DNA of 64,000 nt from a marine group bacterium Sva0996 bin134 (lineage in GTDB: Bacteria > Actinomycetota > Acidimicrobiia > Acidimicrobiales > Bin134), in contig MPNQ01000002.1 in assembly GCA_002239105.1 (NCBI GenBank), positions 124,001-188,000 on the forward strand, read 5' to 3'. Positions 1 to 7,913 of this stretch are shown in pieces. Below the pieces are notes generated by a model that saw only the letters and a list, made by a program, of their open reading frames with translations, was not told the DNA's origin and ran no database searches. The position numbers and the translations under genes are program-made. Every line of letters begins with the position of its first letter. The stretch's first letter is position 1.

Positions 1-989
1 TGGACGTCGCAATCGTGGAGGAGTCGGCGGCGGATGGTCTCGCCGGCACCGGCCTCGAATAACACGTTGTCGGGGACGACCACCGCGGCGGTGCCGCCGA
101 CCTTGAGCAGGCTGACAACGTGCTGGACAAAGTTGAGCTGCTTGTTCTTGGTGGTGGCCCAGAAGTCCTCGCGTTCGTAACTGTCGGAGGACGACCGGCC
201 GAAGGGGGGATTGGTGAGGACCATGTCGAAGCGCTCGCCGGGGTCGTCGCGTAGGGCGTCGTCTACGTTGATGGGAGAATCGGACTCAGGGCTCTCTATC
301 CCGTGGAGCAGTAGGTTCATGGCGCAGAGTCGAGCGGGCAGGTCTGCGATCTCCCAGCCGGTGAAAGCTCCTGACCGCAAGTGGGCGGCCTGGTCGGGAG
401 TCAAGTGGGGGAACCGCTCGACGATGAACTGATAGGCACCTAGGAAGAAGCCCCCGGTCCCGCAAGCTGGGTCGCAGATGCGGTGGCCGGGCTCGGGCTG
501 CATCACATCGACGATTGCCGAGATCAGGGGTCGAGGGGTGAAGTATTGCCCGGCTCCTTTGGCGCCCTCCTGGGCGGTCTTCTCGATCAAGCCCTCATAG
601 GCGTCGCCTTTGAGATCGGCGTCGTAGCTCATCCACTCGTGCTGGTCGATGAACTCCTTGATGAGCTGCTCCAGCTTGGCCGGGTTCTGGACCCGGTTGC
701 GGGCCTTGCGGAACACCACGCCGAGCATGTCATCGGCTGATCCGAGTTCCGCAAGGGTCTCGTTGTACTGGGCTTCGAGCTGCTCTCCCGACCGATTCAG
801 CAATGTCGGCCAGTCGTAGCCGATGGGAACCACCCGCTGGCCCAGCAGTTCGTACTGCTCGTCGGCCATCTTCAGGAACAGCAAGTAGGTGAGTTGCTCC
901 AGATAATCGCCATACGACAGGCCGTCGTCTCGGAGCACATCGCAGAAGTCCCACAGCTTCTGCACCATGGCCTTGGGATCAGAGGTCAT
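1..989 (-). CDS. hsdM: Type I restriction-modification system, DNA methyltransferase subunit HsdM (partial, runs off the window)
   Basis: N6-adenine methyltransferase subunit of a type I R-M complex (HsdM2S modifies, HsdR2M2S cuts). I translated it from ATG at 989, which has a GTGAGGGG Shine-Dalgarno just upstream; 329 codons are visible and the C-terminus lies beyond position 1. The N-terminal helical domain (about residues 7-130) is followed by the SAM-binding motif DPACGTGGF (173-181) and the catalytic motif NPPFG (258-262). Both catalytic motifs are intact, so the enzyme is probably active. It has the same orientation as hsdR and hsdS but is separated from hsdS by a 2.8-kb insert carrying toxin-antitoxin and unknown genes. 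Confidence 0.95.
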   Translation of the reverse strand, partial: MTSDPKAMVQKLWDFCDVLRDDGLSYGDYLEQLTYLLFLKMADEQYELLGQRVVPIGYDWPTLLNRSGEQLEAQYNETLAELGSADDMLGVVFRKARNRVQNPAKLEQLIKEFIDQHEWMSYDADLKGDAYEGLIEKTAQEGAKGAGQYFTPRPLISAIVDVMQPEPGHRICDPACGTGGFFLGAYQFIVERFPHLTPDQAAHLRSGAFTGWEIADLPARLCAMNLLLHGIESPESDSPINVDDALRDDPGERFDMVLTNPPFGRSSSDSYEREDFWATTKNKQLNFVQHVVSLLKVGGTAAVVVPDNVLFEAGAGETIRRRLLHDCDV

Positions 990-2465: not shown

Positions 2466-3170
2466 ATGTCCATTTCCGGTGTTTCTCTCCTGATATTCGT
2501 ATTCTTATTCCCCGGCGTCTTCTTCGGATGGGGCTTTGCCCAGTCGAGGCCACTCCACAGTGGACGGACCAGGGAGTGGCTGATTCGGTATGCCAGCATG
2601 TCGGCCGGCTGGTTGGCGGTGGGTGCTTGGCCCTTGCACTGGCTCTACGCGACCTACTGGAAGGATCTAGTCGACGGCAAGACGCTCCCTCCATCCCTCT
2701 ACATTGTGCCCGCAGCGTATTTGGCTGTCCCCGCCTTCGCGGGCTGGTGTGCTGGGCAGATCGCCCTGAAATTTCGGGGATGGGGCCGGAGGGTCGAATG
2801 GTTTGGAAAGCTCTTGGGAACAGGCGCTACCCCGTCGGCGTGGGACCACCTGTTCGATAGCAGAGAAGCTGGTTTTGTGCGGTGCCTGCTGCGTTCGGGG
2901 AGGTGGGTCGGTGGCCTATACGATGCCAGCCAGTCGGTGCCGTCATACGCGTCGGATGGAAAGGCAGAGCAGGACATCTACATTTCGTCTGCTGTCGAAT
3001 TCGACCAGGAGTCGGGGGCCGTTGTGCTGAGATCTGGAAAATATGCCTGGACCGGGGGCGGGCTTTACCTGAGGTCAGGTGACATCGAGACGCTAGACTT
3101 TGTTTCAGTTTTGCCCGAGAACCGCAACGAGAAGGATTCCGATGACCCAGAACCGACGGCCACGGTATGA
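2466..3170 (+). CDS. DUF6338-like membrane-anchored protein of unknown function
   Basis: 234 aa. An N-terminal hydrophobic segment (about 6-25, LLIFVFLFPGVFFGWGFA) is followed by a basic/aromatic stretch and a second hydrophobic segment (about 80-98). A cytoplasmic domain then has TPSAWDHLFD and GRWVGGLYDASQSVPSYAS, which recall DUF6338 proteins of actinobacteria (recognition from memory, not a search). A TAGCTT box 8 nt upstream suggests a leaderless start at ATG 2466. The end overlaps the next small gene by 29 nt, so these form an operon. No biochemical function is known to me. Confidence 0.65.
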   Translation: MSISGVSLLIFVFLFPGVFFGWGFAQSRPLHSGRTREWLIRYASMSAGWLAVGAWPLHWLYATYWKDLVDGKTLPPSLYIVPAAYLAVPAFAGWCAGQIALKFRGWGRRVEWFGKLLGTGATPSAWDHLFDSREAGFVRCLLRSGRWVGGLYDASQSVPSYASDGKAEQDIYISSAVEFDQESGAVVLRSGKYAWTGGGLYLRSGDIETLDFVSVLPENRNEKDSDDPEPTATV

Positions 3171-3303
3171 GGACCAGATTCGGCACAAGGACGGATACTC
3201 CCCTAGCGCATCAGTAGGCACCGAGAGCGTCCCCGATGGCCTGTTCCCCCCACCCGACCCGCCACGAGCAGACCCGCCAGCCACACCATCTTCTGACGAT
3301 TAG
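3142..3303 (+). CDS. Proline-rich acidic-tailed micro-protein, copy 1
   Basis: 53 aa from ATG 3142, preceded by AAGGA and overlapping the DUF6338-like gene. The N-terminal half is charged; the C-terminal half reads DGYSPSAS...VPDGLFPPPDPP and ends SSDD. The next gene encodes a protein with the same plan, so the pair are paralogues. There is no signal peptide or membrane segment. It looks like an extended adaptor peptide or a small partner of the membrane protein, but that is speculation. The paralogy, the ribosome-binding site and the operon position support a real gene. Confidence 0.65.
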   Translation: MTQNRRPRYEDQIRHKDGYSPSASVGTESVPDGLFPPPDPPRADPPATPSSDD

Positions 3304-3341
3304 CTTGCACGCCGGTAGCTAAACCACGAAGGACCAGAAAC

Positions 3342-3524
3342 ATGGCAGAGGACCAGCAGCCCAACATCGCAGCCGAAGGAAAAGACCTAAGTGTAGAAGC
3401 CGGCTATGCGCCGAAGGCCGAAATCAGCCCTGATAATGTGCCCAGCGGCATCTACTCACCCCCGCCGGAGCCGCCCCAGTCACAACCCTCAGGAGATAGC
3501 TCACCCACAAGCGCGGACGACTAG
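3342..3524 (+). CDS. Proline-rich acidic-tailed micro-protein, copy 2
   Basis: 60 aa with a good ribosome-binding site (GAAGGA, 9-10 nt before ATG 3342). It shares with copy 1 the order GY(S/A)P - VP(D/S)G(L/I)(F/Y) - PPP(D/E)PP - P-rich - DD at the C-terminus. The N-terminal parts differ, so the conserved functional part is the C-terminal 35-40 residues. It follows copy 1 after 38 nt in the same operon and is followed by the HigA-like gene after 38 nt. Function unknown. Confidence 0.68.
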   Translation: MAEDQQPNIAAEGKDLSVEAGYAPKAEISPDNVPSGIYSPPPEPPQSQPSGDSSPTSADD

Positions 3525-3562
3525 CTCGAGGCGGGCTAATGCCGATGGCTGAAGGGTAGGAA

Positions 3563-3832
3563 ATGGACGAGCTTGAACCTAGCTTCACCCCAGGAGAAAT
3601 CCTGAGTGACGAGTTGGAGGCACGCCGCTGGAGCACGGCCAGATTCGCTGAGACCCTGGGGAGAACTGTCGAGGCGACCTCGGCGATACTCGAAGATCGG
3701 ACAGAGATCTCCGTCGAGATTGCCGACGACATCGGGCAGGCACTTGGAACCGGGCCCGAACTGTGGCTGAACCTACAGGAGATCTATCGCAACCGATACA
3801 CCGACACGGACCACCGGCCAGTACCGGCCTAG
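3563..3832 (+). CDS. HigA-family XRE helix-turn-helix regulator, no HigB partner seen
   Basis: 89 aa. FTPGEILSDELEARRWSTARFAE starts the HigA/VapI-type fold, and the HTH follows (LGRTVEATSAILEDRTEISVEIADDIGQALG). It ends in ELWLNLQEIYRN, the W-x-NLQ signature of HigA antitoxins. The ribosome-binding site is GGGTAGGAA directly before ATG 3563. A HigB toxin would normally lie immediately upstream; here that place is taken by the proline-rich micro-protein. It may regulate the DUF6338/micro-protein operon, or be an orphan antitoxin. It ends 5 nt from the convergent hsdS stop. Confidence 0.82.
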   Translation: MDELEPSFTPGEILSDELEARRWSTARFAETLGRTVEATSAILEDRTEISVEIADDIGQALGTGPELWLNLQEIYRNRYTDTDHRPVPA

Positions 3833-3837
3833 GCGGG

Positions 3838-5088
3838 CTATCGAGAGGCAGCGATGCGCTCCAGCAGGGCTGAGGCTGGTTCGTCGTTGGGGTCTTGGGG
3901 CACGAGCCGGCCAGAGAAGGCGTCGGCAAGGATTGAGCGTCGCAAGGTCGCTATGTGACATTTCGCCTGGTTCAGATCAGCCTGCAGACTGTCGCCCATC
4001 TCCATGACTGTCCGCAGTTGGCCCACAACTTCTCGCTGTTCGCTCAAGGAGGGGGACGGCACTGGGAACGACTTGAGGATGGTGAGGTTGAGCGATGCGA
4101 GGTTGGTGGTCTGTTTGCCATGTGCTTCGAACCACCGCTGTCCCCATGTGTTTCCGTGCATCGAGACGAAGTACGGATCGAAGGCTTCCCCGGTCAGACG
4201 GGCCCGAAAGACATGATTCTGATGGATGCAGCCCTCAACCTGCCCCTCCCACACCCAGCCGCGTCCGAGCTTGTCACGGTCGCCACCCTCATTGAAGAGG
4301 ACGTCGCCGGGCTTGAGCTCGAGTGATAGGGCTTTCTCAGGTTTGACCCGAATAGTTGTGACATCTTCAAGATCAAGAAAGCCTCGTTGAACATTGGCTA
4401 CTCGAAGGTAAGGGACTTCGACATAGTCAGGGTTACCCTGATTCTTCGAGTCCTTGGTGATGCCGCCCTTCACCTCGGCAATTTGACCCAGAGTCGTCCA
4501 AGGCCAATCTGGTCGATCGAATAGGCCCTGAAATGATGAGCGTCGGAACGCTTCAAGTTTTTGCTGGGCAGCTTCCACAGCGATGTGAACAGCATCAAGG
4601 TGGGAGAAGTGTTCTTCGATGGCAGCAACAATCCGCTTCTGCTCACGCGTGGGGGGCAGCGGAATTTCATGTTCCTGCATTTGTCTCCACTTAAGGCGCG
4701 GGCGGTCACCAGTGCTCTCATGCAGAGCGAATTGACAGAACGAAGGACTTAGGAGCAGGTACTGCAAGTACCGCGGCAGCATGGCGTCTGATCTTGGCAA
4801 CACAATCAGCTCTGCTGACCCGAGTGCTACGCAATCAACAAGTGCGACTTTGTTCAGATAGGGCCGCAACCTCGCATACGCTACGTCTTCCGGATACAGC
4901 TCAACTGACTGTGAGCGATAGTCGCTCGACCTTTCCCAACCGATCACTGTCCCGCGATCACTTGCAATGTTGTCGAGGCTCAAGTAGGGACGATCATCTT
5001 CCGAAGCCGGAATCACCTTCCCAGCTCGAGGAAGACAAATCTGGCCGAGTTGAACCCGCTCCCAACTGGAAGGCAACTCTCCTGTCAC
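3838..5088 (-). CDS. hsdS: Type I restriction-modification specificity subunit HsdS
   Basis: 416-aa specificity subunit with two target-recognition domains (about residues 5-135 and 195-350). Each is followed by a conserved helical spacer: PLPPTREQKRIVAAIEEHFSHLD... and PSPSLSEQREVVGQLRTV.... It recognises a bipartite DNA site and positions HsdM and HsdR. The GTG start at 5088 overlaps the hsdR stop (GTGA), so the two are translationally coupled. The recognition site cannot be read from sequence. It is full length. Confidence 0.95.
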   Translation of the reverse strand: MTGELPSSWERVQLGQICLPRAGKVIPASEDDRPYLSLDNIASDRGTVIGWERSSDYRSQSVELYPEDVAYARLRPYLNKVALVDCVALGSAELIVLPRSDAMLPRYLQYLLLSPSFCQFALHESTGDRPRLKWRQMQEHEIPLPPTREQKRIVAAIEEHFSHLDAVHIAVEAAQQKLEAFRRSSFQGLFDRPDWPWTTLGQIAEVKGGITKDSKNQGNPDYVEVPYLRVANVQRGFLDLEDVTTIRVKPEKALSLELKPGDVLFNEGGDRDKLGRGWVWEGQVEGCIHQNHVFRARLTGEAFDPYFVSMHGNTWGQRWFEAHGKQTTNLASLNLTILKSFPVPSPSLSEQREVVGQLRTVMEMGDSLQADLNQAKCHIATLRRSILADAFSGRLVPQDPNDEPASALLERIAASR

Positions 5089-7913
5089 GCTGCAAGAACT
5101 TCGGTCAGCTCATCCAGCAACTGGTTCAACTCGCTCCCAAAGAGTTGGCGGGCCTTGCCTAGTCCGCCGCGGTCGCTGAACGGTGGGGACTGGAGGTCGG
5201 CGGGGGTGATGCTGAGGCTGGATGCGATGCGGGCTTTGATGAGGTCGAGGTAGGCGAGTTGGTCGGTGGTGAACTTGGTGCCGGTGGCGTGCTGTTGGTT
5301 TAGCCAGATCTCGAAGCGCTCGTTTACTAGGTCGGGATAAGCCACAAGCTCGTCGGCGTTGCCGAGGGCGTAACGGACCAGGCTCACGAGGTCTGTGTGC
5401 ACCCGGTGGCCTGAGCCTCGGACTTTGGACTTGTCGAGGGTTTCGTAGGCTTGCCAGAGGATGTCGGGGGTCCAGCGATGGGGTGGACGGCCGATGGCGT
5501 TGACTAACTCCTTGATGTCGGCGTAGGTGAGGCCGCGACCGTAGGGCTGGTGGTAGAGCACTTCTAGCGCGGTGATCTCGTCTCGATGGTCCTCGATGAA
5601 CTGCTTCCACGACTCCACTTGGCTGCGGGCTCGGGCGGCGGCGTCTACGGAGAACTCTCCGGAGATCACCCGGTCACGAGTGGCTTTGTCGATCACTTGC
5701 TCGTAGCTGCGGCGGATGTCCACCAGCTTCTGTCGTAGCTCGGAGTTGCCGGCTAAGGGCTGGATCGCCTCGGCAATCAGCCTCTGAGCAGCCACGGCCA
5801 CTTGGTCGGGGGGCGGGTCGTCGGTGCCCGTCTCGGCTGAGGCGGCTTCGTGTTGGTGGTCGGGGTCGAGGGCGTCGGTGATCTGGCGGACTAGCTCACT
5901 CAGCTCCACTCCGGCTACCGACTCCACCTCGGCTCGGTCTTCTGCGGTGATCCGGCGGTTGAGGCGAGCCAGGCGCGACGCCACTGACGAGACAGCGTTG
6001 GGGTCTTTGGAGCCGAGGCCGATTTGGTTGAGCAGCTTGTCGAAGCTCACGTGGCGCTGGCGCTCTAGGGGGACGGTGTCGTGGAGGTCGGCTTCGGTTA
6101 CGCCCACTGCATCGACGATCACAAAGCGGTCTTTGGCTTGGGCGTCGGGTGTGACGGTGCGGAGTTGGTCACTGTCGATCACCCTCACGCCTCGGCCCTT
6201 CATCTGCTCGAAGAAGTTGCGGCTTCGCACCATGCGCATGAAAACCACGCACTCGATGGGCTTGACGTCGGTGCCGGTGGCGATCATGTCCACGGTCACT
6301 GCGATGCGGGTGGGATAGTCGGTGCGAAACTTCTGGAGCAGCTGCTCGGCGCTCTCGCCCGCCTCCCCGGAGCGATAGGTGATCTTCACCGCGCCCTGGT
6401 TGCCGAGGCCGAACTCCTCCCGCACGATCTGCACGATGTCATCGGCATGGCTGTCGTCTTTGGCGAAGATCAGCGTCTTGGGGATGTTGACCAGGAAGCC
6501 GTCGTCGTCTTGCTCCCGGTCTTCGAACATCTCGGGCAGCGAATCGCGAAAGGTGCGCACAATCGTGCGGATCTGATCAGGTGCCACTACCCGGCGGTCG
6601 AGTTCGCCTGCGTCATAGGTGATGTCGGCGTCGGCCTGTTCGAGGCGGATGCTGCGGGTCTCCCGGTCGCGGAACTCGGTCACGAAGCCGGAGGGGACGG
6701 TGCCACCGGCTTCGGTGATCTCGGTGCGGATGCGGAATATGTCGAAGTCCACGTTCACTCGGTCGGCCACTGCTTGGGCGTGGCCGTACTCCATCACCAG
6801 GTTCTGGTCGAAGAAGGCGAACGTCTGGATGCCGGGGGTAGCGGTAAGGCCCACCAGGAAGGCGTCGAAGTACTCCAGCACCTGGCGCCACACACCATAG
6901 ATCGAGCGATGGCACTCGTCGATGATGATCAGGTCGTACGACTCGATGGGCACTCTGGGGTTGTAGGCCACCTCAATCGGCTGTTCGGGAGCAGTGTCGA
7001 AGCCGGATTGCTCGTCGAGGTCGTTGGGGAGCTCCTCGCCCCGCAGGATGGAGTAGAGGCGCTGGATGGTGCTGACGTGGACTTTGGCGGCGGCCTCGTT
7101 GGCCATGTCGAGCTCTGAGGAGGCGAGCCGGCGGACGTTGTACAGCTCTGTGAACTTGCGTCGGTCGCCGGGCACCTCGAAGCCTTCGAACTCTCGGACC
7201 GCCTGGCGGCCCAGGTTGGCCCGATCGACCAGGAAGAGGATGCGGTTGGCTCGAGCGTGGCGCAACAGTCGGTAGCTGGTATTGACGGCGGTGAACGTCT
7301 TGCCCGACCCGGTGGCCATCTGGATCAGCGCCTTGGTGCGGTTCGCTATGAAAGACGCTTCCAGGTTACGGATGGCCTCGGCTTGGGCTGGCCATAGACC
7401 GGGCGGTTCGACCCCCAGATCGGGCAGCTCGCTGAATCCGTTGCGCAGGGTGGCGTTACCGTCGAACTCCTTGTAGTTGTTCCGCCAGTGGGCAAGCGTC
7501 TCAGGGCGGTGGAAGGCGAACACCCGCCGGGATGTGGGCAATAGATCGAGCCCGCTGGTAAAGCGAGTCTCGGTGCCGGTGGCCTCGTAGCCGAACGGCA
7601 AAGCGCCATCGACGAGGAAGGCCGGCAATTCACCGGGATAGGCGGCCTGGTACTTGCGGGTCTGGGGCTCCACGCCAGTCAGCGTGGTGCCCACCTTCTT
7701 AGCCTCAATCACCCCTACCGCTTGTGAGTCGACGTACAGCACGTAGTCGGCCGGTCCAGCCTCAGTGGGCACCTCCCTCACCGCCACTCCCCTGGCGGCG
7801 GCCACCGCAGCGTGCTGGTAGTCCTGCACCTCCCAGCCACACTCCGCCAATTGCAAGTCGATCGCCTCGCGGGCACGCGCCTCAGGGGTTAGGTAGTCAG
7901 AAGAAGCGGTCAT
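5085..7913 (-). CDS. hsdR: Type I restriction endonuclease, motor/nuclease subunit HsdR
   Basis: 942-aa subunit that translocates DNA and cleaves it. The N-terminal nuclease domain has the D...E-x-K pattern (Asp56, Glu70, Lys72 in VIEAKK). The SF2 helicase has Walker A ATGSGKT (200-206) and DECH (332-335), then motif VI region FEQMKGRGVR. The C-terminal part resembles the EcoEI R-subunit domain. All motifs are intact and the length is normal. It heads the hsdR-hsdS operon; hsdM is not directly adjacent. Confidence 0.96.
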   Translation of the reverse strand: MTASSDYLTPEARAREAIDLQLAECGWEVQDYQHAAVAAARGVAVREVPTEAGPADYVLYVDSQAVGVIEAKKVGTTLTGVEPQTRKYQAAYPGELPAFLVDGALPFGYEATGTETRFTSGLDLLPTSRRVFAFHRPETLAHWRNNYKEFDGNATLRNGFSELPDLGVEPPGLWPAQAEAIRNLEASFIANRTKALIQMATGSGKTFTAVNTSYRLLRHARANRILFLVDRANLGRQAVREFEGFEVPGDRRKFTELYNVRRLASSELDMANEAAAKVHVSTIQRLYSILRGEELPNDLDEQSGFDTAPEQPIEVAYNPRVPIESYDLIIIDECHRSIYGVWRQVLEYFDAFLVGLTATPGIQTFAFFDQNLVMEYGHAQAVADRVNVDFDIFRIRTEITEAGGTVPSGFVTEFRDRETRSIRLEQADADITYDAGELDRRVVAPDQIRTIVRTFRDSLPEMFEDREQDDDGFLVNIPKTLIFAKDDSHADDIVQIVREEFGLGNQGAVKITYRSGEAGESAEQLLQKFRTDYPTRIAVTVDMIATGTDVKPIECVVFMRMVRSRNFFEQMKGRGVRVIDSDQLRTVTPDAQAKDRFVIVDAVGVTEADLHDTVPLERQRHVSFDKLLNQIGLGSKDPNAVSSVASRLARLNRRITAEDRAEVESVAGVELSELVRQITDALDPDHQHEAASAETGTDDPPPDQVAVAAQRLIAEAIQPLAGNSELRQKLVDIRRSYEQVIDKATRDRVISGEFSVDAAARARSQVESWKQFIEDHRDEITALEVLYHQPYGRGLTYADIKELVNAIGRPPHRWTPDILWQAYETLDKSKVRGSGHRVHTDLVSLVRYALGNADELVAYPDLVNERFEIWLNQQHATGTKFTTDQLAYLDLIKARIASSLSITPADLQSPPFSDRGGLGKARQLFGSELNQLLDELTEVLAA

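Follow-up and report, generated by a model that had tools for sequence, protein, structure and literature searches.

The type I restriction-modification (R-M) locus of the marine group bacterium Sva0996 bin134 (Acidimicrobiales) is interrupted by a small cassette encoding a membrane protein, two proline-rich micro-proteins, and a HigA-like regulator, raising the question of which of these genes belong together and what they might do. The locus lies in the first part of a 64,000-nucleotide stretch of contig MPNQ01000002.1, the whole of which is referred to here as the window. An earlier note on this DNA had described four genes packed on one strand between hsdS and hsdM, with a 29-nt overlap followed by 38-nt gaps, and these coordinates were reproduced.

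Organization of the Cassette

The first gene (2466..3170, + strand) encodes a 234-aa membrane protein that was modeled with AlphaFold2, as described in detail below, and that matches Pfam family PF19865 over residues 7-215 (E 3e-20; 73.1 bits, with a gathering score cut-off of 26.5), making it a member of DUF6338. Micro-protein 1 (53 aa; 3142..3303, + strand), the gene for which overlaps the DUF6338 gene by 29 nt, contains a GYSP motif (3193..3204, + strand) and a proline-rich, acidic C-terminus; after a gap of 38 nt, micro-protein 2 (60 aa; 3342..3524, + strand) contains a GYAP motif (3402..3413, + strand), and after another 38 nt follows the HigA-like gene (3563..3832, + strand). Purine-rich, Shine-Dalgarno-like stretches were found upstream of micro-protein 1, micro-protein 2, and the HigA-like gene. 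The R-M genes are on the opposite strand, with hsdS (3838..5088, − strand; PF01420) and hsdR (5085..7913, − strand; ResIII and EcoEI_R_C) on one flank of the cassette and hsdM (1..989, − strand) on the other. The 3′ part of hsdM lies beyond the start of the window and was completed from the genome contig (G000:C59:123538-124989; PADLOC MTase_I, 625 bits). The gap between hsdM and the cassette contains two toxin-antitoxin (TA)-like pairs, one of PhdYefM/ParE type (1177-1688, + strand) and one of RHH/Fic type (2340-1733, − strand).

The HigA-like protein, which scores 44.8 bits against the NCBIfam HigA model TIGR02607, just under the cut-off of 47.7, had been counted as part of the cassette, and this part of the proposal did not hold. 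In the closest relative of the cassette (locus L040, in genome G016, an Acidimicrobiia MAG), both micro-proteins come after a DUF6338 gene whose product is 63% identical, and no HigA is present. HigA homologues 82–84% identical to that of the window were found in five genomes (G006, G007, G011, G014, and G015), of which four congeners (G007, G011, G014, and G015) gave no DUF6338 match. Furthermore, as judged by eye, a HigB-like toxin frame ends directly upstream of HigA in congeneric loci L158 and L161, and a HicB-like frame lies upstream in L159 and L160; in the window, no HigB adjoins the HigA-like gene, which is preceded instead by micro-protein 2. Membership of the HigA-like gene in the cassette was ruled out by these comparisons and, since the gene is absent from L040 and has HigB-like partners in congeners, that of the window is best read, from sequence comparison, as an antitoxin gene without its toxin that adjoins the cassette, an orphan. 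Within the genus, the antitoxin seems to have been reshuffled between TA loci with HigB-like or HicB-like partners.

Distribution of the DUF6338/Micro-ORF Pair

DUF6338 genes with one to four downstream micro-ORFs were found in Actinomycetota, in Alpha-, Beta-, and Gammaproteobacteria, and in prophages. Of 61 DUF6338 loci, 53 have an ORF with the micro-protein motif beginning inside the window set downstream of the gene, as compared with 30 of 1,687 control windows, the 61 loci including related prophages that are not independent and the motif having been picked after inspection of the data. For the Acidimicrobiia-type and plasmid groups alone, the motif ORF was present in 18/25 loci. Among DUF6338 genes that are of the window's type and come from its own genus and order, the majority have a micro-ORF at their end. 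Inspection by eye of 17 DUF6338 loci, drawn from annotated plasmids, one phage-plasmid, and E. coli genomes, revealed one to three micro-ORFs in 16 of them, with the Gordonia locus L068 being the only one without an evident micro-ORF. About 10 of the 22 micro-genes in these loci are omitted from the annotation tables (by our own count, the plasmid tables being incomplete).

The gammaproteobacterial DUF6338 alignment retrieved 50 loci from IMG/VR viral contigs, and GYxP ORFs, one to four in tandem, were located downstream in 47 of the 49 loci scanned. One of the two exceptions (L110) lies at a contig edge; in the other (L101), the ORF was missed by the scan, although a micro-protein query does match that contig (L143). 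In the reverse direction, two micro-protein alignments, both gammaproteobacterial, retrieved 15 and 16 viral loci, with DUF6338 located upstream in all 31; of these loci, 28 are on contigs already known via DUF6338, and the other three (L149, L152, and L153) have a DUF6338 gene directly upstream, as identified by profile. Searching all plasmids with an E. coli micro-protein gave one weak match (E 0.7), which is the micro-protein behind the DUF6338 gene of Sphingomonas ERG5. No matches were obtained when genome contigs were scanned with a single DUF6338 protein as the query, or viral contigs with the Acidimicrobiia alignment. Overall, DUF6338 and micro-ORF genes co-occur in a fixed order across phyla. 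Both the co-occurrence elsewhere that the earlier note had set as a test and its suggestion that the membrane protein and micro-proteins form a conserved unit are thereby borne out.

In a tree of 43 DUF6338 proteins, L011, L014, L015, L016, and L020 form one clade (support 100/96) apart from the micro-protein-bearing proteins. Since no micro-protein was found for this clade in the places examined, DUF6338 can occur without one. The DUF6338 proteins of L010, L014, and L068, for which no micro-protein is clear, themselves have a C-terminal tail rich in Pro and Gly (one ends in AKPPPA, for example), and this tail is perhaps a fused equivalent of the micro-protein. Separately, a locus labeled Cryomorphaceae (Bacteroidota; L049) contains an actinobacterial-looking DUF6338 gene and micro-protein, possibly on a mis-binned contig.

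Coding Capacity and Relatedness of the Micro-ORFs

An alignment of the two micro-proteins of the window spans the C-terminal two thirds of each, and its local score was reached by none of 20,000 composition-preserving shuffles; their relationship thus extends beyond composition, in agreement with the paralogy proposed earlier. Micro-protein 1 and its L040 counterpart (4681-4845), from a congeneric genome, share 74% identity, with a dN/dS of 0.08, indicating that these are not chance frames; the counterpart of micro-protein 2 is 42% identical. The dN/dS values of micro-ORF pairs were 0.08, 0.12, 0.22, 0.10, and 0.08, as calculated for pairs with unsaturated synonymous sites, the remaining pairs being saturated and giving no ratio. 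Purifying selection acts on the micro-ORFs, which are coding. The control windows, the occurrence of micro-ORFs in AT-rich hosts (Acinetobacter and a Klebsiella phage), and the dN/dS values rule out chance frames in GC-rich DNA as their source. Independent evidence for translation of such ORFs is provided by Pseudomonas stutzeri, in which mass spectrometry and direct sequencing detected three proline-rich small proteins encoded in one predicted operon with DUF6338 (PMC10433244).

The micro-protein motif consists of G-[YWFH]-x-P repeats, usually with a proline-rich C-terminus (APPPKKP in proteobacteria); the rough gammaproteobacterial consensus is DGYQP..KGYQP...NGYQP...APPPKKP, with up to three copies of GYxP. 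Sequence similarity between phyla is weak, and the unity of the micro-proteins across phyla rests on position and motif. Neither micro-protein of the window belongs to a family in Pfam, NCBIfam, or PHROGs, nor do the other members, for which a single, irrelevant NCBIfam match (E 0.08) was returned; PADLOC 2.0, at E 1, likewise gave no family for DUF6338, either micro-protein, or HigA. In an Acidimicrobiia subgroup (L041-L044), the micro-proteins carry GGYYP and a non-proline C-terminus (TTEELMKELRS or similar), and are followed by a possible second frame with GGYAP.

Predicted Structures

The AlphaFold2 model of the window's DUF6338 protein, computed as a monomer from 30 sequences, has a mean pLDDT of 82.7 and a pTM of 0.60. 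Three transmembrane (TM) helices are predicted at residues 3-27, 35-69, and 77-107 (2472..2786, + strand), followed by a short helix (residues 125-131) and by strands (residues 136-214). The loop between the first and second TM helices and the stretch after the third are rich in Arg and Lys, as read from the sequence, and under the positive-inside rule these charges suggest that the C-terminus is cytosolic.

Residues 119-217 (2820..3116, + strand) of the predicted model were compared with solved chains. Foldseek gave a best E of 7.7e-3, and VIA-align gave Z values up to 7.6 with 77 of the 78 residues of an Sm chain aligned, a Z under 8 being one that may reflect merely a common arrangement; the fold matches listed are Sm/LSm chains, all belonging to structures of spliceosomes or of Sm/LSm proteins. 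The model of a gammaproteobacterial DUF6338 protein again matched Sm/LSm, with Z up to 8.7 and all 73 of 73 residues of 1i5l covered. Since the two subfamilies agree and the whole Sm domain is covered, an Sm/LSm-like fold, with an N-terminal helix and a barrel, is accepted for the predicted C-terminal domain. A profile search of PDB sequences with DUF6338 returned no Sm chain at E 10. The first idea, an SH3-type barrel binding proline motifs, was dropped, the fold matches being Sm/LSm. A fold search of BFVD returned two uncharacterized Siphoviridae proteins with E below 0.001. In a model of the L098 read-through, in which DUF6338 and micro-protein are joined, the micro-protein part had a pLDDT of about 42, rising to about 61 in the last residues, which is compatible with a disordered-looking chain.

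Genomic Neighborhoods

The neighbors searched with PADLOC and Pfam were those whose annotation looked promising, without a random-gene background for comparison. In L048, HmaA (1,443 bits), DUF6338, micro-protein, and HmaB (1,098 bits) genes follow one another on a single strand, and in L047 the DUF6338/micro-protein pair is followed by HmaC. The same arrangement is found for the second DUF6338 copy of the present genome (L155; HmaC, 1,003 bits), and the third copy (L156), of type B, is preceded on the same strand by HmaB and HmaC; each of the three DUF6338 genes in the genome therefore lies by defense genes. Elsewhere, DUF6338 adjoins a CBASS cyclase (5.8e-125) and 2TM effector (L064), is followed, after the micro-protein, by ThsB-like TIR and caspase genes (L058), or lies near caspase and TIR genes (L067) or an E2-E1-JAB fusion (L059). 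Type I R-M neighbors were found in the window, in L068 (S and R), and in L040 (M). Thus, the earlier placing of the unit in a defense locus stands and extends to several unrelated systems. The cassette is not confined to R-M loci; an R-M-specific accessory is ruled out by the Hma, CBASS, TIR-caspase, E1-E2-JAB, and other contexts.

The pair was also found in mobile elements. Its neighbors in E. coli GF131 are a tRNA and phage genes for CII, a repressor, and an integrase; the ECONIH2 copy is part of an integrase-bearing island. No defense complex was recognized near many of the prophage and plasmid cargo copies, of which L055 and L071 are examples. Mobile-element cargo is in any case enriched in defense genes.

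Two further arrangements were observed. In L156 (4902-6343, − strand), the type B DUF6338 gene has no micro-protein and is followed by a gene whose 252-aa product weakly matches nucleoside deoxyribosyltransferase, the two possibly being another effector pair. On a Streptomyces plasmid (L057, 4291-7959), a CHAT-domain protein is encoded after DUF6338 and its micro-protein.

Possible Functions

DUF6338 and its micro-protein look like a real, widespread, and uncharacterized two-part module. Its occurrence both beside unrelated systems and as cargo of prophages favors viewing the pair as an add-on that is self-contained. The chances are about even that this is a conserved, defense-associated two-component module in which DUF6338 serves as a membrane effector or entry block and the micro-proteins as ligands of its Sm-like domain. 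In the mechanism proposed, the Sm-like domain would face the cytosol and be bound by the micro-proteins as multivalent ligands, which would cluster it or keep it inactive; an infection sensed by the module itself or by the neighboring defense system would alter the state of the DUF6338/micro-protein pair; and DUF6338 would then act at the membrane, as a growth-arresting or permeabilizing effector or by blocking phage entry. Binding to the Sm-like domain is the most economical role for the micro-proteins, given the positive-inside pattern, the cytosolic look, the repeated motif, and the tight linkage, and the micro-proteins probably bind this predicted domain and cluster or restrain it. A partner present in excess would fit the P. 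stutzeri data, in which the small proteins gave 44-114 PSMs and the DUF6338 protein no peptide (PMC10433244). A more specific picture is offered tentatively: membrane-anchored Sm-like rings or pores, clustered or plugged by disordered tandem GYxP micro-proteins, would constitute a portable add-on repeatedly acquired by unrelated anti-phage systems and prophages.

The reading preferred here is a membrane effector or entry block that responds to infection, with two serious rivals. The first, possible if rather improbable, is that DUF6338 merely serves as a membrane dock and is not itself an effector, with the micro-proteins as multivalent linkers bringing the neighboring defense complex to the membrane, the site of phage-DNA entry. 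Such an adaptor would account for one pair being found beside systems as unrelated as R-M, Hma, CBASS, and TIR-caspase, and for up to three GYxP copies per micro-protein, but not readily for the cargo copies lacking a recognized complex nearby or for a motif that is unchanged whatever the neighbor. The second, unlikely, is superinfection exclusion, in which the pair would be lysogenic-conversion cargo, the membrane protein blocking DNA injection or a receptor and the micro-proteins aiding folding or regulation. The 50 loci from viral contigs and the settings in GF131 and ECONIH2 are in keeping with exclusion, whereas chromosomal and plasmid copies inside same-strand multi-gene defense operons (L048, L064, and L058) are unlike typical exclusion genes.

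A strict TA system, with DUF6338 as membrane toxin, the micro-proteins as antitoxins, and the HigA-like gene as regulator of the operon, is doubtful. The tight, overlapping gene order favors it, as do the P. stutzeri data, in which the small proteins were well detected and the DUF6338 protein was not (PMC10433244); however, membrane fractions were not analyzed in that study (PMC10433244), so little can be read into the missing DUF6338 protein. In addition, conservation of the pair does not extend to HigA, and a toxin followed by several tandem antitoxins would be an unusual order. Export of the micro-proteins as antimicrobial or signaling peptides with the help of DUF6338, in line with their high proline content and the antimicrobial role considered possible for proline-rich small proteins in P. 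stutzeri (PMC10433244), is very improbable, as no signal peptide, leader, or double-glycine motif was obvious by eye, the window copies have acidic ends, and the module adjoins defense genes.

Significance and Comparison With Known Systems

The preferred reading, a membrane effector or entry block with micro-protein ligands, joins an orphan domain and tiny genes, often unannotated or deemed species-specific and de novo, into one defined module, with a simple rule for its recognition: GYxP micro-ORFs directly behind DUF6338. The predicted structures suggest a mechanism based on a membrane-bound Sm-like domain and a peptide ligand, and to our knowledge no such mechanism is known in bacterial immunity. 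Since it recurs by genes of Hma, CBASS, TIR-caspase, E1-E2-JAB, and type I R-M systems, the module can be tested as a general defense accessory. The novelty lies in the parts and their architecture; should the function be antitoxin-like, the module would fall within an established theme.

The C-terminal domain of DUF6338 resembles Sm/LSm proteins (SmAP, Sm, and Lsm) in its predicted fold, and differs from them in its fusion to three TM helices. Sm proteins carry the RNA-binding signatures Asp-x-x-Met-Asn and Arg-Gly, and these residues were not evident by eye in the DUF6338 alignments. MscS-type channels, which assemble as rings of seven, consist of three TM helices, an Sm-like middle domain, and a C-terminal α/β domain. 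They would have in common with DUF6338 the succession of three TM helices and a (here predicted) Sm-like domain; however, DUF6338 lacks the C-terminal α/β domain, and no MscS chain was among the fold matches listed. Pfam assigns no function to PF19865, and neither the Sm-like domain nor a general partnership with micro-proteins has been noted in the literature found; beyond PMC10433244, the literature within reach, which left out most subscription papers and preprints, held nothing on the module.

The P. stutzeri operon shares with the present module a DUF6338 gene and several short proline-rich proteins (PMC10433244), the likeness resting on proline content and operon position. Its authors reported the small proteins only in that species and suggested de novo genes, on the criterion of 60% coverage and 40% identity in tBLASTn (PMC10433244); sequences as short and fast-changing as these would often fall below such thresholds. 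In contrast, the pairing described here extends across phyla by position and motif, and is accompanied by a fold prediction and a defense context. Finally, nuclease-protease pairs have been recurrently acquired by immune systems (PMC12799240). The proteins are different, the DUF6338 module having neither nuclease nor protease, but the two cases are alike in that a gene pair has been recruited by several unrelated immune systems.
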